A stretch of DNA of 9,386 bases from Pseudomonas sp. (GTDB taxonomy: Bacteria > Pseudomonadota > Gammaproteobacteria > Pseudomonadales > Pseudomonadaceae). A program made the position numbers and the translations under genes. The notes beneath the pieces are model-generated. The model searched no databases, was not told where the DNA came from, and saw only the letters and a program-made list of their open reading frames with translations. The stretch lies in NCBI GenBank assembly GCA_003523465.1, contig DQAA01000412.1:3075-12460 (forward strand). Reading direction: 5' to 3'. This document shows positions 763 through 9,386 of the stretch, in pieces (the first letter of the stretch is position 1; every line of letters starts with the position of its first letter).

Positions 763-1155
763 ATGGTTACCCTCGAAAACATCCTGGTGTTGATGGTCCT
801 GGCCACGGCGGGCGCCTGGCTCTGGCACAACCATGGATTGCGGGAAAAAGCCCTGGAGCGGGTCAAGCAGCATTGCGCCAAGCTCGATCTCGAACTGCTC
901 GACGGTGCCGTCGCGCTGAAGAAGATCGCTTTCGTGCGCGACGCCAATGGCCGCAAGCGCCTGGCCCGGATCTACAACTTCGAATTCACCGTGACCGGCG
1001 AGCAGCGTCATCCGGGCACCGTTACCCAGTTCGGCGCCCACAGCGTGCAGATCGAACTGGCGCCCTACCCCTTCGAAATCAAGACGCCGGCGCACGGCGA
1101 CAACGTGATCGAAATGAAACAGTGGCGCCAGGAACACAACCGCTGGCGTCAGTGA
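763..1155 (+). CDS. DUF3301 family protein, membrane-anchored, unknown function
   Basis: Small protein of 130 residues. The first ~20 residues ([18 protein letters not shown]) form one hydrophobic helix, so it is probably anchored in the inner membrane with a soluble C-terminal part. The rest has the DUF3301 pattern: an arginine/lysine-rich helix with [14 protein letters not shown] around 41-54, then [17 protein letters not shown] around 59-75, which reads as short beta strands. The ATG at 763 is supported by GGAG at 750-753, nine bases upstream. Its stop overlaps that of the convergent cobW-like gene by 7 bp (1149-1155). No catalytic motif is visible and I know of no assigned function. The family call rests on recalled sequence pattern. 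Confidence 0.8.
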
Positions 1156-2126
1156 TCCAGCGGCAGGCGGCACGCCAGCAGGTCTCGCTCCAGTGCCGCA
1201 GGATCCTGGGCCTTGTCGAAAATCAGCTCGACCCGCGAATCTCGCCGCCAGGCGCTCTCCTCCCAGTCCCACGCTTGCCCGGCCAGGGCATTGGCCGAGC
1301 GCCAGCCCTGCGCCGTGTGGATAACCATCTTGGCCCGGCGCCATTCCAGATGTTCCAGAAAACCCCGCACTAGAGCGTTATCGAGGCGTTGCTGTGGATG
1401 AAATCGCCAGCCAATGCTCCAGCCCTCGGGGGCCTGTTGATAACTGCATAACGGGCGTTGTGGATCTGTCCACAGGGCCGAAATCGGCGTTTTCTGTTCG
1501 GAAACAATGTTATCCACAGGAGACTTATCCACTGGCGGTTGAGTGGATACAGGAAGATCTGCCAGTGAAATCCGACCGTGATCGACCCAAAGTAGAGGCG
1601 CCTCAGGCAGGCGCGAAGTTATCCACAGTCGTTTTTCTTCATCCACAGCGGATGCCTTGTTCATGACCAGCAGGCCAGCGCTGTCCAACGCTTGTTGCTG
1701 GGCGTCCGGCAATGCGTTACCTGCCGCAAGGGCCAGTGCATCCAGCACCAGCACGGCAGGCTGTACGGCAAGTACACCGGTCCAGGGCGGGGACTGTAGC
1801 TGCGCCAGCAGTTGCGCCGGGTGACCCAGGCCAGACGGTTCGATAAACAGCCGATCCGGCCGCGCCTTTCGCAGCAGGCGGCCCAACCCGACCTGGAACG
1901 GCGCACCATTCACGCAGCACAAGCAGCCGCCAGCCACCTCGCCCATGCTGACCCCGTCGTCATCGGTGCTGAGCAGGGCCGCATCGAGGCCGATCTGGCC
2001 GAACTCGTTGATAAGCACGGCCCACCGCTCATTGGCCGGGCGCTGGCCGAGCAGGTGGCGGATCAGGCTGGTCTTGCCGGCGCCGAGGGGGCCGGCAATC
2101 AGATGGGTCGGAATGTTCTGCAGCAT
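1149..2126 (-). CDS. CobW-like COG0523 P-loop GTPase (putative metallochaperone)
   Basis: G3E-family GTPase of 325 residues, third gene of the zigA-DUF1826-cobW operon. Visible motifs: Walker A GPLGAGKTS (12-20), the family-defining metal-binding CLCC (68-71) in GGCLCCVNG, a Walker B-like IEPSGLGHP (95-103), and NKAS (156-159) where most relatives have NKxD. An interdomain linker of about 60 residues with a repeated PVDK/PVDN stretch follows, then a CobW C-terminal-type domain (about 220-325) ending in VELIFD. COG0523 proteins move or insert metal with GTP hydrolysis; here zinc is inferred from the Zur context and the client is unknown. There is no histidine-rich loop. The start at 2126 fits the family N-terminus, but no Shine-Dalgarno precedes it, so translation may be coupled to upstream genes. 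The linker DNA carries the DnaA-box cluster described separately. Confidence 0.9.
   Translation of the reverse strand: MLQNIPTHLIAGPLGAGKTSLIRHLLGQRPANERWAVLINEFGQIGLDAALLSTDDDGVSMGEVAGGCLCCVNGAPFQVGLGRLLRKARPDRLFIEPSGLGHPAQLLAQLQSPPWTGVLAVQPAVLVLDALALAAGNALPDAQQQALDSAGLLVMNKASAVDEEKRLWITSRLPEAPLLWVDHGRISLADLPVSTQPPVDKSPVDNIVSEQKTPISALWTDPQRPLCSYQQAPEGWSIGWRFHPQQRLDNALVRGFLEHLEWRRAKMVIHTAQGWRSANALAGQAWDWEESAWRRDSRVELIFDKAQDPAALERDLLACRLPLDH
1316..1647. promoter_or_regulatory. Cluster of DnaA-box sequences inside the cobW-like gene
   Basis: Perfect TTATCCACA boxes lie at 1316-1324 (minus), 1510-1518 (plus) and 1619-1627 (plus). One-mismatch copies lie at 1393-1401 (minus), 1525-1533 (plus) and 1639-1647 (plus). 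Two-mismatch copies at 1459-1467 (minus), 1466-1474 (plus) and 1542-1550 (minus) complete the set. A given 9-mer is expected about once per 131 kb counting both strands, so three perfect copies in 330 bp is far beyond chance. Most of them fall in the interdomain linker of the encoded protein. No AT-rich unwinding element accompanies them, so this is not an origin by itself. A DnaA-binding or titrating site is inference. Confidence 0.5.
1459..1474. repeat. Inverted repeat made of two head-to-head degenerate DnaA boxes
   Basis: TGTGGA (1459-1464) and TCCACA (1469-1474) form a perfect 6-bp inverted repeat with a 4-base spacer. Each arm is the conserved half of a DnaA box. It lies within codons for the WTDPQ part of the cobW-like linker. 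Confidence 0.5.
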
Positions 2127-2170: not shown

Positions 2171-2806
2171 TCAGGCCAGCCAGTCAAGGGTCAGGATCAA
2201 CCGGCGCTCGCCGTTGAGCGGCGAGGGCGAGCGATGCACCAGCCCGGCACCCTCGTTGCCCAGCCATTTCTCGCCCTTGAGCAGCGCCACATCACCGCAG
2301 GCCAGACGCTGGATGTGCGCCGGATCGACGTCCTCCTGGGCCAACCGGCGACGGTTGACCACGCCCTCCTCCAGCCATTCGCTGGCCGGGCCAGCGTAGG
2401 TGGTGATCAGCCGCAGCGGCACGTGGTCGACATGGAAACGCGGGCACATGGCGTTCTCCAGCACCCGCAGGCGCAAGCCCACGCTGCGGGCGTCGAGCAG
2501 GCAGGCGTAGGCGCCCACCAGCCAGCTGAGGTCGGCGATAAAGCCCTCGTACCCGGCCAGGTCGGCGTAGGCGCGGGCAATGCCGTCGAGCACTGGAACT
2601 TCGCCGTCCTTGCCGATCTCCAGGGTGCGGGCATCGGCCAGCGGCTCGTTCAGCGACAGCAGCAGGCGGGCGAAGTCCTCGATGTGCGCTGGCAGCCGAC
2701 GCTGCCAGACCGCCAGGTTGACGCCATCCTGCAGTGCTTGCGTCAGCACCTCCGGCGTTTCACCAAAGGCCTGGCGCACCGGTACCAGCGACTCGGCGAG
2801 CAACAT
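2171..2806 (-). CDS. DUF1826 family protein, possible metal-dependent oxygenase fold
   Basis: Protein of 211 residues, middle gene of the zigA operon. DUF1826 proteins commonly sit beside COG0523 genes in zinc-starvation loci; their biochemical role is, to my knowledge, not established. The best-conserved stretch here is CPRFHVDHVPLRLITTYAGP (121-140), followed by TEWL-like SEWLEEG and, further on, LLKGEKW (176-182) and GLVHRSP (188-194). H125, D127 and H191, with R201/R202 ten or eleven residues later, follow the HxD...H...R spacing of Fe(II)/2-oxoglutarate oxygenases; this is an inference. ATG at 2806 is preferred over GTG at 2809, because AGGAGG ends seven bases before the ATG but only four before the GTG. 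The ATG shares one base with the zigA stop (TGATG), so translation is probably coupled. There is no signal peptide; the protein is cytosolic. Confidence 0.85.
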   Translation of the reverse strand: MLLAESLVPVRQAFGETPEVLTQALQDGVNLAVWQRRLPAHIEDFARLLLSLNEPLADARTLEIGKDGEVPVLDGIARAYADLAGYEGFIADLSWLVGAYACLLDARSVGLRLRVLENAMCPRFHVDHVPLRLITTYAGPASEWLEEGVVNRRRLAQEDVDPAHIQRLACGDVALLKGEKWLGNEGAGLVHRSPSPLNGERRLILTLDWLA

Positions 2807-4017
2807 CACGCCACCTCCTCTTCGTCATACCAAGGGCCGAACGGGTCCGGCAGGCGCAGCCAGTTGGGGGCGCCCAGGGCCATCTCTTCGTCGTTCAGCA
2901 GGCAGGCATCGAGTTCGGCATGCAGGCGCGACACGTCGAGGTGCTGGCCGATGAACACCAGTTCCTGACGGCAGTCGCCGCATTCCGGGTCCCAGTGCTG
3001 GAGGATGGCTGCGGTGCTCTGTGGATCTTCCGGCCATTGGGCCTTGGGCACGAAGCGCCACCAGCGTCCGGCGAAACCATGACGCATCATGCCGCCAGCC
3101 TGGGACCAGCTTCCGGCTTCCTGGTATTTGCTGGCGAGCCAGAAGAAGCCCTTGGAACGCAGCAGCCGCCCGTTCTCCCACGGCCTGTGGATAAAGTCGA
3201 AGAAGCGCTGCGGGTGCAGGGGCCGGCGGGCCTGCCAGACACTGGCGGCAATGCCGTACTCCTCGGTTTCCGGAACGTGCTCCCCGCGCAGTTCCTGCAA
3301 CCAGCCGGGCGCACTGGCGGCACGTTCGAAGTCGAAGAGGCCGGTATCGAGAATCTGCTTCAGATCCACCTGGCCCATGACCATCGGCACGATGCGAGCG
3401 TGGGCGTTGAGGCGGCGAAGGATGGCGCTGAGTTCGTCGCGTTCGTGACTGCTGATCAGGTCGATCTTGCTCACGAGGATGACGTCGGCGAACTCCACCT
3501 GGTCGATCAGCAGGTCGCTGATGGAGCGTTCGTCGTCTTCGCCAAGGGTTTCGCCGCGGGAAGCGAGGCTGTCGGCGGCCTGGTAGTCACGCAGGAAATT
3601 CAGGCCGTCGACCACGGTGACCATGGTGTCGAGCCGCGCCATCTCGGCCAGGCTGCGGCCCTGGTCGTCGCGGAAGGTGAACGTCTCGGCCACGGGCAGC
3701 GGCTCGGCGATGCCGGTGGATTCGATCAACAGGTAATCGAAACGGCCTTCGGCGGCGAGACGGCCGACTTCTTCCAGCAGGTCCTCGCGCAGGGTGCAGC
3801 AGATACAACCGTTGCTCATCTCCACCAGCTTTTCTTCGGTGCGGTTGAGGCTGACGTTGCGCTGCACTTCGGTGGCATCGATATTGATCACGCTCATGTC
3901 GTTGACGATGACCGCGACCCGCAGGTTGTCGCGATTACGCAGCACATGGTTGAGCACCGTGCTCTTGCCGGCACCAAGGAAGCCGGACAGCACGGTTACG
4001 GGAAGACGATCGGACAT
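2806..4017 (-). CDS. zigA: ZigA-type COG0523 GTPase, zinc-starvation metallochaperone
   Basis: GTPase of 403 residues, first gene of the operon and nearest the Zur-like operator. Visible motifs: Walker A SGFLGAGKST (11-20), CICC (71-74) in SNGCICCTLRED, Walker B-like LLIESTGIAEPLPV (97-109), the guanine-binding position as SKID (183-186), and the C-terminal RQELVFIGQHLD (350-361) typical of the ZigA/YciC subgroup. A CGDC pair (C346, C349) directly precedes the last motif and could add metal ligands. The long histidine-rich loop of some relatives is absent. Family knowledge: ZigA supports zinc-dependent enzymes when zinc is scarce and is repressed by Zur. The start at 4017 is chosen because GAGGAA lies about seven bases upstream and MSDRLPVTVLSGF is a normal family N-terminus; an in-frame upstream ATG at 4068 would overlap the promoter region. 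Confidence 0.93.
   Translation of the reverse strand: MSDRLPVTVLSGFLGAGKSTVLNHVLRNRDNLRVAVIVNDMSVINIDATEVQRNVSLNRTEEKLVEMSNGCICCTLREDLLEEVGRLAAEGRFDYLLIESTGIAEPLPVAETFTFRDDQGRSLAEMARLDTMVTVVDGLNFLRDYQAADSLASRGETLGEDDERSISDLLIDQVEFADVILVSKIDLISSHERDELSAILRRLNAHARIVPMVMGQVDLKQILDTGLFDFERAASAPGWLQELRGEHVPETEEYGIAASVWQARRPLHPQRFFDFIHRPWENGRLLRSKGFFWLASKYQEAGSWSQAGGMMRHGFAGRWWRFVPKAQWPEDPQSTAAILQHWDPECGDCRQELVFIGQHLDVSRLHAELDACLLNDEEMALGAPNWLRLPDPFGPWYDEEEVA
3186..3194 (-). promoter_or_regulatory. Isolated perfect DnaA box (TTATCCACA) in zigA
   Basis: An exact TTATCCACA on the minus strand within zigA codons. It is one of three perfect copies in this window outside the main cluster. Alone it could be chance, but six perfect copies in 9.4 kb is not. 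Confidence 0.35.
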
Positions 4018-4059
4018 GGCGCGGTTCCTCATCAGGGCGGCAAAGTGCATTCGAGCGAT

Positions 4060-4073
4060 GCATTTCAAAATGC
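4060..4073. repeat. Perfect inverted repeat overlapping the edge of the Zur box
   Basis: GCATTT-ca-AAATGC is a perfect 6-bp inverted repeat with a 2-bp spacer. It shares three bases with the left edge of the putative Zur operator and covers the expected transcription start of zigA. It could be a second operator or an accidental repeat; no protein can be assigned. Confidence 0.3.
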
Positions 4074-4085
4074 TACATTATAACA
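4071..4085. promoter_or_regulatory. Putative Zur operator between zigA and the small exported-protein gene
   Basis: TGCTACATTATAACA matches the gammaproteobacterial Zur core TGTTATANTATAACA at 12 of the 14 defined positions. On the minus strand it contains TATAAT (4082-4077), a perfect -10 hexamer for zigA that would give a 5' leader of about 50 nt. On the plus strand TATAAC (4079-4084) could act as a -10 for the gene at 4136. Binding of Zur with zinc would block both, so one site may control both directions. No good -35 hexamer is seen in either direction, which fits a weak or activator-helped promoter. Zur is inferred from the motif and from the zinc-sparing genes on both sides. Confidence 0.75.
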
Positions 4086-4135
4086 ATGCAACTTTACCAA
4101 CCACTTATCCGCCGCTTGTGCGTTCGAGGATATTC

Positions 4136-4516
4136 ATGACGTTGTTGAACCGAGGACTGTGGATAACCTTGCTGTGTGCCATCGGTAGCGCCCAGGCCAT
4201 GCCCCGTACCGACCTTGCCCACTGCACGCGCAGCGCCAATCTGCTGGCCTGCGCGGATCGCCAGGGCAGTTACTACAGCGTGCAAACCCAAGGGACGACC
4301 ATTTACCTGCGGGGTTACGACGCCCCAAGCGCTCGACGTTGGGCGCAAACCAATAGCCGCTATGGCCAGTTGAATTTCTATACCGGCATCGCCAGCGATG
4401 GCGAAGCCTGGGTGGGTTACAGTCGCAAGGTGGGCTGGACCACGATCAACCGCGTATCCAGTTCCAGCGGTCAACGTTTCAACCTTCGCTGCAACCGGTT
4501 GAGCGGTTGTCAGTAG
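4136..4516 (+). CDS. Small exported protein of unknown function in the Zur region
   Basis: I do not recognise this 126-residue protein. Residues 1-21 form a signal peptide: a short positive N-terminus, the hydrophobic WITLLCAIG core, and SAQA before the likely cleavage site. The mature part, about 105 residues, has four cysteines in two outer pairs (C30, C39, C119, C125), which could form two disulfides in the periplasm or outside the cell. The middle is rich in Tyr, Gly, Ser and Trp (YYSVQTQGTTIYLRGYD, RYGQLNFYTG, AWVGYSRKVGW) and looks like a small beta protein. There is no lipobox and no obvious His/Cys metal cluster. GAGGA at 4126-4130 supports the ATG at 4136. The gene stands between two Zur-like operators, diverges from zigA and precedes folE2, so zinc-dependent expression is plausible but unproven. 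Confidence 0.75.
   Translation: MTLLNRGLWITLLCAIGSAQAMPRTDLAHCTRSANLLACADRQGSYYSVQTQGTTIYLRGYDAPSARRWAQTNSRYGQLNFYTGIASDGEAWVGYSRKVGWTTINRVSSSSGQRFNLRCNRLSGCQ
4158..4166 (-). promoter_or_regulatory. Isolated perfect DnaA box near the start of the small exported-protein gene
   Basis: Exact TTATCCACA on the minus strand, about 75 bp from the Zur-like operator and inside the signal-peptide codons. DnaA also acts as a transcription factor, so an effect on the divergent promoters is possible, but position is the only support. Confidence 0.35.
4492..4509. repeat. Hairpin-forming inverted repeat at the 3' end of the small exported-protein gene
   Basis: CAACCG (4492-4497) and CGGTTG (4504-4509) form a 6-bp stem with a 6-base loop, ending just before the stop codon. 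No run of T follows, so it is not a standard Rho-independent terminator, though it might protect the 3' end or slow transcription. Confidence 0.25.
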
Positions 4517-4545: not shown

Positions 4546-4560
4546 CGTTATAATGTAACG
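4546..4560. promoter_or_regulatory. Putative Zur operator and -10 region of folE2
   Basis: CGTTATAATGTAACG is a near-palindrome that differs from the Zur core TGTTATANTATAACA at three defined positions, two of which are a symmetric outer pair. It contains a perfect -10 hexamer TATAAT at 4549-4554, giving a predicted start near 4561 and a leader of about 30 nt to the folE2 ATG at 4592. Its 11-mer GTTATAATGTA is identical to the minus-strand reading of the zigA-side operator (4084-4074), so both operons are transcribed outward from the same element. No clear -35 is present. Confidence 0.7.
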
Positions 4561-4591
4561 TATTGCAACTTTCTCGCTGATGGTTCGCAAC

Positions 4592-6711: not shown

Positions 6712-8151
6712 ATGGATTACCACAGCCCCCAGTTCTTCGCGTACCTGATAGGTGCAACCCACTTCATCGGTGCGGTCGCCGCCCTGCATGCGGTGTTCAC
6801 CGTGCGCACCGCCCAAGGCTCGATCGCCTGGGCCCTGTCGCTGCTGTTCATTCCCTACCTGACCCTGATCCCCTATCTGGTTTTCGGCAGCCGCACCTTC
6901 GACGCTTATATCCAGGCCCGCCGCCAGGCCAACCAGGAAATGCACGTGGCCATGGCCGACCTGAACTGGCGCCCCTGGGTCGAAGAAGCCCTGGCCGCCA
7001 GCAACTCCCCCGCCTATGCCGGACTTCGTGCCCTGCCCAAGCTCGGGCGCATGCCCTGCCTGGCGAACAACCGGGTACGCCTGCTGGTCGATGGCACCGC
7101 CACCTTCGAGGCCATCTTCCAGGCCATCGAGCAGGCCCGCGATACCGTCCTGGTGCAGTTCTTCATCATTCATGACGATGAACTCGGCCGCCGGCTTCAC
7201 GCCCTGCTGCTGAAAAAGGCCGCCGCCGGGGTGAAGGTCTATGTGCTCTACGACGGCGTCGGCAGCCACGCCCTGCCCGCCCGCTACAGCCAGAGCCTGC
7301 GCGAAGGTGGCGTGGAGATCCGCGCCTTTGCCACCAAGCGCGGCTGGTTCAACCGCTTCCAGGTCAACTTCCGCAACCACCGCAAGATCGTCGTGGTGGA
7401 CGGCGTTCAAGGTTTTCTCGGCGGGCACAACGTCGGCGACGAATACCTTGGGAGCAAGCCGCCGCTGTCCCCCTGGCGCGATACCCATGTGCAGGTGACA
7501 GGGCCGGTGCTGGCCTGTCTCCAGGAGTCCTTCGCCGAGGATTGGTACTGGGCCGCACGGAAATTGCCACCGTTGATTCTTCCGGAAACCTACCCCGACA
7601 ACGGCGTGCTCTGTCAGGTCCTCGCCAGCGGTCCGGCGGACCCGCAGGAAACCTGCTCGCTGTTCTTCGTCGATGCCATCCAGGCGGCCCAGCACAGGGT
7701 GTGGATAACCAGCCCGTACTTCATCCCGGATGAAGCGGTATTCGCCTCGTTGCGCCTGGCGGTGATGCGCGGTGTGGATGTACGCATCCTGATTCCATCA
7801 CGCCCCGACCACCGCATCGTCTACGCCGCCTCCAGCCTGTTCGCCTTCGAAGCGGTCCGCGCCGGGGTGCGGATGTTCCGCTACCAGCCAGGTTTCCTGC
7901 ACCAGAAGGTCATGCTGGTGGACGATGATGTCGCCGCCATTGGCAGTGCCAACCTCGACAACCGCTCGTTCCGTCTCAACTTCGAAATCACCCTGGTGAC
8001 CATCGACCCCGGCTTCGCCGCCACGGTGGAGGCGATGCTGAGCAAGGACTTCGAACAGTCCCGGGAGATCACCCCGGAGGACAGTCGCGACACCCACCGC
8101 CTGCAACAACTCGGGATGCGTATCGCGCGATTGATTTCACCGATTCTCTGA
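6712..8151 (+). CDS. cls: Cardiolipin synthase (ClsA-type, phospholipase D superfamily)
   Basis: Inner-membrane enzyme that makes cardiolipin by transphosphatidylation of phosphatidylglycerol. The 479 residues match the usual ClsA length. Two N-terminal membrane helices (about 10-30 and 37-58) contain the family's [15 protein letters not shown]. Both catalytic HKD motifs are intact: H223-K225-D230 in [10 protein letters not shown], followed by [13 protein letters not shown], and H397-K399-D404 in [10 protein letters not shown], followed by [15 protein letters not shown] (411-425). [10 protein letters not shown] at 332-341 is also typical. ATG at 6712 is chosen because it starts directly before the first membrane helix and has AGGA five bases upstream; the reading frame is open further upstream into the DUF3617 gene, which is non-coding on this strand. 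The TGA stop abuts the convergent cfa stop with no gap. A perfect DnaA box lies within it at 7700. Confidence 0.95.
7700..7708 (-). promoter_or_regulatory. Isolated perfect DnaA box in cls
   Basis: Exact TTATCCACA on the minus strand, within codons for the HRVWITSP stretch of cardiolipin synthase. It is the sixth perfect copy in the window. Confidence 0.3.
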
Positions 8152-9333
8152 TCAGCGATAGAGATCTTCGCGGGTCAGCGGCAAGTCGTGGCTGCCATCG
8201 GCCTTCGGTTTGACGGCAAGGATCTGGTGCAGGTTGATCCAGCCGCGGGAGAACGCGTAGGAACAGCCGGCCAGGTACAGGCGCCAGATGCGCAGGGCCT
8301 TTTCCGGGACCATGGTGGCGGCCTTGTCGAGATTGGCTTCGAGGTTGTCGCTCCAGAACTTCAAGGTCCGCGCGTAGTGCAGGCGCAGGCTTTCCACGTC
8401 GACCACTTCCAGCCCCGCCTCGCTGAGGAAGCCGCTGATCATCGACATATGCGGCAGCTCGCCGTGGGGAAAGACATAACGCTCGATGAAGTTGCCGGCG
8501 CCGCGCCCCACCGGACGGCCATCGGTGTGCCTGGCGGTGATGCCGTGGTTCATCACCAGCCCACCCTCGCGCACCGCGCCAAACAGACGCTGGCTGTACA
8601 ACTCCAGGTTGGCGTGGCCGACGTGCTCGAACATGCCGACGCTCACCACCTTGTCGAAACGACCGTCCTGGGGAAGATCGCGGTAATCGAGGATCTGCAG
8701 GTCGACCTGTTTCTTCAGGCCCTCGGCCGCCACCCGCTCGCGGCCCAGCTTGAGCTGCTCCTTGCTAAGGGTGATGCCGAACACCTTGGCCCCGTATTCC
8801 CGCGCGGCGAACCGCGCCAGCCCGCCCCAGCCGCAACCGACATCCAGCAGATAGTCGCCCCGCTGCAAGCGCAACTTGCGGCACAGGTGATCGAACTTGT
8901 TCTGCTGGGCCTGTTCGAGGCTGTCGCCGGGGGTCTTGAAGTAGGCGCAGGAGTAGGCCATGTCCGGGTCCAGCCACAGCTGGTAGAAGGCATTGGACAG
9001 GTCGTAGTGGTAGGAAATGGCCGACGCGTCAGTGGCCTTGTCATGCTTGCTGCGCACCGGCAGCACGTCCTCCTCGTCCTTGAGCAGCGCTTCGCTGAGT
9101 TCATCGCACAGGCGGATGACCTCGCTCATGGTCCCTTCCAGTTCCAGCTTGCCTTCCACAAAGGCCGCGCCCAGTTCGTCCAGGCCTGGATGCGTCAGCT
9201 GGGTGATGAGGCTCGGGTCCTTGAGCATGATGGTGACCTGGGGTTGCGGGCCCAGATCGAACTCATGTCCGTCCCACAGGCGCAGACGGAGCGGAAGACG
9301 CAGGCTTTGCAGAACCGAGAGTTGCGCAAGCAT
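8152..9333 (-). CDS. cfa: Cyclopropane-fatty-acyl-phospholipid synthase (SAM-dependent)
   Basis: Transfers a methylene group from S-adenosylmethionine to the double bond of unsaturated acyl chains in membrane phospholipids. Of 393 residues, the first ~100 form the N-terminal lipid-interacting domain, then SYHYDLSNAFYQLWLD (107-122) and the SAM-binding LLDVGCGWGG (162-171). Residues matching the bicarbonate-binding active site of E. coli Cfa are all present: C129 in AYSCAYF, E236 in GMFEHVGH, H263 and I265 in NHGI, Y320 in LHYARTL. ATG at 9333 is chosen because a strong GAGGAGG at 9342-9348 lies eight bases upstream; the frame stays open to 9369 but would run through that site. Many Pseudomonas carry two cfa-type genes, so this may be the paralogue rather than the main stationary-phase enzyme. 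It faces cls, and both act on membrane phospholipid. Confidence 0.93.
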   Translation of the reverse strand: MLAQLSVLQSLRLPLRLRLWDGHEFDLGPQPQVTIMLKDPSLITQLTHPGLDELGAAFVEGKLELEGTMSEVIRLCDELSEALLKDEEDVLPVRSKHDKATDASAISYHYDLSNAFYQLWLDPDMAYSCAYFKTPGDSLEQAQQNKFDHLCRKLRLQRGDYLLDVGCGWGGLARFAAREYGAKVFGITLSKEQLKLGRERVAAEGLKKQVDLQILDYRDLPQDGRFDKVVSVGMFEHVGHANLELYSQRLFGAVREGGLVMNHGITARHTDGRPVGRGAGNFIERYVFPHGELPHMSMISGFLSEAGLEVVDVESLRLHYARTLKFWSDNLEANLDKAATMVPEKALRIWRLYLAGCSYAFSRGWINLHQILAVKPKADGSHDLPLTREDLYR

Positions 9334-9386
9334 GAAGTGAGCCTCCTCATATATAACGTGGGACGTCACGGAAACAGGGTAGTTCA
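9334..9386 (-). promoter_or_regulatory. cfa upstream region (partial)
   Basis: Only 53 bp of the cfa leader are in view. A TTATAT element at 9356-9351 resembles a -10, but a start from it would fall within the Shine-Dalgarno at 9348-9342, so it is probably not the promoter. A short inverted repeat CGTG-ggacgt-CACG (9357-9370) lies just upstream. The real promoter is probably outside the window. Confidence 0.25.

Follow-up and report, generated by a model that had tools for sequence, protein, structure and literature searches.

A DnaA-box cluster written into a Pseudomonas cobW-like gene as one node of an origin-flanking, putatively DnaA-titrating domain

It has been debated for decades whether bacteria time replication to start once per cycle by counting DnaA against its boxes on the chromosome, and the initiator-titration model describes a mechanism of this type (review, PMC5835720). 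In Bacillus subtilis, removal of six oriC-proximal DnaA-box clusters (DBCs, Okumura et al. 2012) leads to early initiation (PMC5295017, PMC13220808). Early initiation is reported to be partly relieved when one cluster is put back at various places (PMC5295017), and a strong effect to be seen only with all six clusters removed (PMC5295017, PMC13220808). Review text also denies the clusters a significant role in initiation, and over-initiation did not follow when DnaA was overproduced tenfold (PMC5295017, PMC13220808). In Escherichia coli, boxes concentrate near oriC, and the chromosome is described as controlling, or titrating, free DnaA (Olivi et al. 2025, PMC12371093). Two further kinds of E. 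coli loci act outside oriC: datA, which is non-coding and is described as needing an IHF site and boxes of the same direction at optimised intervals, and DARS, in which a core of boxes I-III reactivates DnaA (PMC5742627).

Here we compare with these systems a cluster of DnaA-box-like sites in a stretch of 9,386 nucleotides from Pseudomonas sp. (the window; GenBank assembly GCA_003523465.1, contig DQAA01000412.1, positions 3,075 to 12,460). The window aligns over 8,808-9,384 of its 9,386 bases, at 86-88% identity, in all four relatives compared. Its genes are, in order, a pdxY-type kinase, DUF3301, the cobW-like gene that hosts the cluster, DUF1826, a larger cobW-family gene, a small ORF, folE2, a hexapeptide-repeat gene, DUF3617, a phospholipase-D-type gene and a cyclopropane-fatty-acid-synthase-type gene; beyond the Pfam families, these names (pdxY-type, folE2, gamma-carbonic-anhydrase-like for the hexapeptide-repeat gene, and others) are what we take the genes to be. 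Two stretches, at 4067-4090 (5' of the larger cobW-family gene) and 4547-4570 (5' of folE2), resemble what is presumably the Zur operator motif (GTTATAAT-type), fitting a putative zinc-starvation operon. A structure model of the cobW-like protein, of moderate confidence (mean pLDDT 75.8, built from 24 sequences), predicts a disordered linker between the domains, and two further stretches of this protein (residues 41-53 and 65-74) also have pLDDT <50. Table 1 gives the coordinates.

Table 1. Positions in the window of the DnaA-box-like sites, the gene that hosts the cluster and its predicted linker.
Feature	Position	Strand	Remarks
cobW-like GTPase gene, cluster host	1149..2126	(-)	325 aa, YjiA-like; Pfam PF02492 E 9.7e-40; PDB YjiA 1nij E 5e-12
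Predicted disordered interdomain linker, residues 197-218	1473..1538	(-)	pLDDT <50
Exact DnaA box TTATCCACA, C-terminal site	1316..1324	(-)	codons GTT ATC CAC; exact in 70/81 orthologues, 2/4 nearest relatives (DNA alignment)
One-mismatch DnaA box	1393..1401	(-)	identical 9-mer in 3/4 nearest relatives
One-mismatch DnaA box TTATCAACA	1435..1443	(-)	identical 9-mer in 4/4 nearest relatives
Two-mismatch site	1459..1467	(-)	motif scan
Two-mismatch site	1466..1474	(+)	motif scan
Exact DnaA box in linker	1510..1518	(+)	encodes P-V-D-N; exact in 4/4 nearest relatives
One-mismatch DnaA box in linker	1525..1533	(+)	encodes P-V-D-K; identical 9-mer in 1/4 nearest relatives
Two-mismatch site	1542..1550	(-)	motif scan
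Exact DnaA box, end of GTPase domain	1619..1627	(+)	L-W-I-T, rare ATA codon; exact in 19/81 orthologues, 4/4 nearest relatives
One-mismatch DnaA box	1639..1647	(+)	identical 9-mer in 3/4 nearest relatives
Exact DnaA box in larger cobW-family gene	3186..3194	(-)	ORF listed 2806-4068, likely start ~4017; exact in 4/4 nearest relatives
Exact DnaA box in listed ORF 3794-4516 (ATG at 4136)	4158..4166	(-)	exact in 4/4 nearest relatives
Exact DnaA box in phospholipase-D-type gene	7700..7708	(-)	not conserved: 0/4 nearest relatives

The cluster, at 1316-1647, contains three exact, four one-mismatch and three two-mismatch DnaA boxes in both orientations. An initial annotation of this DNA had reported exact sites at 1316, 1510 and 1619 in both orientations, which our motif scan confirms, and three two-mismatch sites, which we locate at 1459, 1466 and 1542. 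Its one-mismatch sites at 1393, 1525 and 1639 are also present, and a fourth at 1435 corrects its count of three. The annotation had further stated that most sites coincide with the interdomain linker. This does not hold: two of the ten sites (1510 and 1525) lie wholly inside the predicted linker and those at 1466 and 1542 are at or just past its edges, while the end of the GTPase domain has 1619 and 1639, and the C-terminal part has 1316, 1393 and 1435.

Sites with up to two mismatches number 26 in the window, compared to a mean of 12.0 in 200 shuffles (sd 3.4, largest 25). Ten sites have at most one mismatch, and seven of these are inside the cluster. Neither three exact nor seven near-exact sites per 335 bp arose in any of 600 first-order or 600 third-order Markov sequences, in which the largest 335-bp clusters had 1 exact and 2 near-exact sites, versus 3 and 7 in the window. 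Base composition as the cause of the cluster is ruled out by these Markov shuffles together with permuted 9-mers.

The exact 9-mer, TTATCCACA, is the DnaA box that has been published for oriC in P. putida and in Pseudomonas sp. UW4, in both cases between rpmH and dnaA (PMC3056050, PMC3596284). In 7/7 genomes, 2-5 exact copies coincide with the C-terminal mark of dnaA or precede it by 1.3-1.6 kb; the boxes in cobW are thus of the type that these species carry at their own dnaA/oriC region. Where cobW and dnaA share a contig, they are 34 kb apart in P. bharatica, 44 kb in P. putida 31753, 58 kb in P. protegens FD6 and 83 kb in P. fluorescens FW300-N2E3. The expectation that orthologues of this gene lie near oriC is therefore borne out in four relatives, from which we infer that the window is also close to oriC. 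The cluster is not oriC itself, whose boxes would lie in the rpmH-dnaA intergenic region: it sits inside a coding gene, at those distances from dnaA in the four relatives.

To separate constraint on the protein from constraint on the DNA, we used the window's gene and those of 80 Pseudomonas loci (80 of 362 relatives; two loci, L052 and L053, share one strain). These 81 orthologues are related, so the counts below are not independent trials. Together they contain 177 exact boxes, compared to 12.9 after synonymous shuffling within each gene, which preserves the protein and its codon usage; this codon test covers cobW alone, and p is <0.05 in 67 of the 81 genes. At least two exact boxes occur in 63/81 orthologues, and three of the 80 loci (L028, L058 and L061) have none. 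The boxes recur at three places, namely the linker region (gene 560-690), the C-terminal part and the end of the GTPase domain (66, 70 and 19 of 81, respectively). Linker and C-terminal sites are found together in 58 orthologues, and all three places are occupied in 17. Their conservation in orthologues, which the initial annotation had proposed as a check, is thus evident across the 81 genes.

The linker had also been thought to be where the protein is least constrained, and this is what we see: amino-acid identity averages 0.39 in a wider linker alignment compared to 0.81 in the GTPase domain, and linker length varies. The codons tell a different story from the residues. Among the 66 orthologues with a linker V-D, regardless of box presence, a T-ending codon precedes V in 61 (12.6 expected), GTG encodes V in all 66 (34.1 expected) and GAT encodes D in 64 (39.6 expected), and the residues that precede V in in-frame exact linker boxes are of eight different kinds. 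In P. mosselii (L022), the box is displaced further along the linker and V-D-N moves with it. The V codon of the C-terminal site is GTT in 72/79, the strongest codon bias among 251 columns. Of the 70 orthologues that have Ile at the GTPase-domain site, 29 encode it by ATA, a codon used for 60 of 1,163 Ile residues in the rest of the gene. The synonymous shuffles and the codon columns rule out protein constraint as the cause of the boxes, which are held in coding DNA through codon choice. Shuffle, codons and positional conservation in three of five genome pairs (given below) all point to selection on the DNA as what maintains them.

How far this extends was assessed in a family-wide set of 70 loci, made up of the best 30 matches (in which L139 is the same gene as L001) and 40 loci chosen from 134 genomes with a match (17 at >110 kb from dnaA, 3 at 61-79 kb and 20 at 22-62 kb). 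An exact cobW box is present in 16 of the 70 loci and the other 54 have none; in 14 of the 148 family genomes searched there was no cobW match. None of the 17 cobW genes more than 110 kb from dnaA has an exact box. However, these genes belong to other lineages and shuffles expect almost no boxes there, so we set this result aside as support. The cobW node therefore belongs to part of the family only, whereas a box-rich domain around the origin is found in 11 of the 12 genomes that we counted.

This domain spans about 110-130 kb and is sharply bounded, and the cobW cluster is one of its nodes. In the first three genomes (360-400 kb fetched), 40/45, 34/39 and 34/38 exact boxes lie within -75 to +55 kb of dnaA, and the 10-kb bins beyond these limits, which were set after viewing the same three genomes, are nearly all without boxes. 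As a share of all boxes in the genome, the domain has 40/135 (G002), 34/135 (G005), 34/101 (G009), 37/146 (G004), 37/151 (G014), 30/110 (G019), 31/149 (G131), 34/132 (G034), 24/90 (G031), 20/33 (G100) and 13/19 (G098). In 11/12 genomes its box density is 13-85 times that of the rest of the genome, with 13-40 exact boxes in 130 kb, oriC boxes included, and 8/12 have 30-40. In the twelfth genome, G105, which has 23 boxes, the 120 kb fetched contains 4, and oriC accounts for two of these. When 2.5 kb on either side of the dnaA mark is left out, 33 boxes remain in FD6 (to +56 kb), 31 in G034, 32 in G014 and 24 in G019. By comparison, 400 permuted 9-mers average 0.1-0.3 copies, with a largest count of 8, in the same 130 kb of seven genomes. 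Boxes outside oriC are thus concentrated near the origin beyond chance in 11/12 genomes, and by extension probably in that of the window. The densest stretch among the genomes counted is in G034, where seventeen exact boxes occur in ~10 kb, -39 to -29 kb from dnaA (L275-L276).

General abundance of the 9-mer had been raised as a point that could undo the significance of the cluster, and here the answer is mixed: the 9-mer is abundant across the genome (11/16 genomes have 101-160 copies), yet ~2% of the chromosome accounts for 21-34% of them in the eight dense genomes, in which 66-79% lie outside the domain. Genome-wide it is commoner than a reversed control in 14/16 genomes; it is not commoner in G098 (19 vs 20) and is rarer in G064 (48 vs 109). 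A lagging-strand bias as reported in E. coli is not evident, the arm counts of seven genomes being even by eye.

Positions within the domain are partly kept between genomes. Of the aligned boxes, 18/23 are shared by P. putida 31753 and P. fluorescens FW300-N2E3 (26% for AT-matched 9-mers), 14/20 by P. bharatica and FW300-N2E3 (26%) and 20/35 by P. bharatica and P. putida 31753 (31%). In the distant G131 and G100, 4/20 and 1/15 boxes are kept, without clear excess over the 17% and 12% of controls. In P. protegens FD6, cobW lacks exact boxes and yet the domain has 37, indicating that the dose persists as sites turn over. The box totals of eight genomes range from 30 to 40 with a variance/mean of 0.31, in a non-random sample of related genomes, and this underdispersion may come from common descent. 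The dose is not constant across the family, as three genomes have 24, 20 and 13 boxes and G105 has 4. One node of four boxes, 8.4-9.3 kb from the dnaA mark, is conserved and lies inside parA and rsmG (genes named by reading translations). At this node (L090:18409-19351), spacings of 333 and 433 bp are repeated in G002, G004 and G014.

A DnaA-titrating role is the best-supported reading of the cluster. It seems probable to us that the whole origin-flanking domain, cobW node included, works as a DnaA sponge by initiator titration. Free Pseudomonas DnaA would bind the boxes. Because these flank oriC, they would be doubled soon after each initiation, so that binding capacity would jump and free DnaA would drop below what oriC needs until growth supplies more DnaA, leaving oriC without refiring. 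Selection would bear on how many sites each origin has, more than on single sites. The titrating site proposed in the initial annotation survives in this form, as one node of an origin-wide domain and not as a stand-alone element. One could go further and suppose that a near-fixed dose of ~35 oriC-flanking boxes times replication in Pseudomonas, written, in part or more, in the codons of core genes (cobW, parA, rsmG). The sponge would then be distributed and intragenic, with selection counting sites per origin as single sites are gained and lost. We regard this more specific proposal as tentative and lean somewhat against it; if true, it would make Pseudomonas an almost pure natural example of the initiator-titration model.

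Compared to the described systems, the Pseudomonas boxes resemble the B. subtilis DBCs in forming clusters outside oriC that are "oriC-proximal". They differ in number, with 30-40 exact boxes per 130 kb in eight genomes as opposed to six clusters. The cobW boxes are moreover written into codons, and the phyla are unrelated. As in Pseudomonas, boxes in E. coli gather around oriC, but there the enriched zone is broad (centisomes 98 to 5) and degenerate motifs were used for scoring (PMC12371093); the main text of that paper does not contain the word "Pseudomonas". In the 150 kb around the E. coli oriC, which is what our comparison covers, we counted 4 exact copies of TTATCCACA. DARS1 and DARS2 share with the cobW cluster that they are multi-box loci outside oriC.

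Instead of titrating DnaA, the cluster and its sister nodes could be places where DnaA organises or segregates the origin region, through domain folding or a link to ParA/ParB. The sharp edges of the domain would suit such a role, as would the well-conserved node inside parA and rsmG. However, box positions differ between groups while the numbers are similar, which suits dose better than architecture, and we consider this explanation unlikely.

Less likely again is a datA-like element, in which IHF-assisted assembly of DnaA would speed the hydrolysis of DnaA-bound ATP and the cluster would be more than a passive sink. Like datA, the cobW cluster is a compact group of putative DnaA boxes outside oriC, with several boxes in ~330 bp close to oriC in relatives, and its linker and C-terminal sites co-occur in those 58 of 81 orthologues. 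Unlike datA, it is coding. The IHF consensus WATCARN4TTR occurs neither in the window nor in gene 450-900 of any of the 81 orthologues, as judged by a strict consensus that a weak site could escape. Box direction is mixed, the two commonest sites (linker and C-terminal) being opposite, and the interval between them is not fixed, shifting with linker length. Loss of the exact boxes from cobW is also tolerated in P. protegens FD6. The likeness to datA drawn in the initial annotation is thus not sustained, and we reject membership in the datA class given the absent IHF consensus and the mixed orientation.

The remaining explanations carry little weight. Another protein might mainly read the 9-mer in this region; this is hard to reconcile with the 9-mer being the box at dnaA/oriC in the same genomes and in the published P. 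putida oriC, and we think it very improbable. Slightly poorer still are the prospects of the switch on the zinc-starvation operon that the initial annotation had offered, in which the cluster would let DnaA regulate transcription. DnaA is a known transcription factor, and the exact box at 4158, kept in all four nearest relatives, precedes the larger cobW-family gene's likely start (4017) by ~140 bp. However, the cluster itself is in the last gene of the likely operon, ~480-810 nt into that gene and ~2.4-2.7 kb from the operon start, a position that does not fit transcriptional control, and similar boxes are spread across the whole origin region. That the boxes are a by-product of conserved protein sequence or base composition is scarcely credible: the sites do often encode V-D-N/K and V-I-H, but synonymous shuffles yield only 12.9 of the 177 boxes, the linker boxes follow eight kinds of residue and a T-ending codon precedes V-D in 61/66, and permuted 9-mers are almost absent from the domain.

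Returning to titration, that origin-proximal boxes titrate DnaA is already known. What looks new are the sharp borders of the domain, its strength, a similar dose maintained with turnover, and encoding at the level of codons. In titles and abstract openings of the open-licence literature, preprints aside, we found no Pseudomonas origin-proximal DnaA-box domain. The E. coli case is complicated by loci that switch DnaA between ATP and ADP forms and by a broad gradient of boxes; the bounded, enriched and maintained domain of Pseudomonas would be a clean place to test titration. Since boxes lie inside genes, they can be removed by synonymous changes that leave the proteins untouched, node by node or together. 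Our results also suggest that replication control can shape protein-coding sequence, down to the linker residues V-D-N/K.

Boxes also gather farther from the origin. A second multi-box cluster lies ~543-602 kb left of dnaA in G005, G004 and G014, with similar box order and shared spacings (e.g. 259 bp). Its coordinates are L249:3612-6333, L250:4355-6786 and G014:C1:142053-146260, and an ETF-alpha-type gene adjoins it in L249 and L250, in which we found no tRNA or known RNA at the cluster. It is a candidate distal control locus, perhaps datA- or DARS-like. In P. bharatica, a group of boxes ~332-335 kb from dnaA (L251:3283-8361) adjoins a tRNA-Thr, two integrase-type genes and a radC RNA; these surroundings are likely a mobile element.

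Finally, a pair of exact boxes facing each other across a 5-bp gap (TTATCCACA-N5-TGTGGATAA) recurs in four genomes (L254:2235-2257, L255:2145-2167, L256:2027-2049 and G014:C8:40235-40257). In L255 and L256 the pair is just upstream of a 152-aa ORF (DUF1232 in L255), and in L255 a gene for an FKBP-type isomerase adjoins it. The site is possibly a DnaA-controlled promoter.
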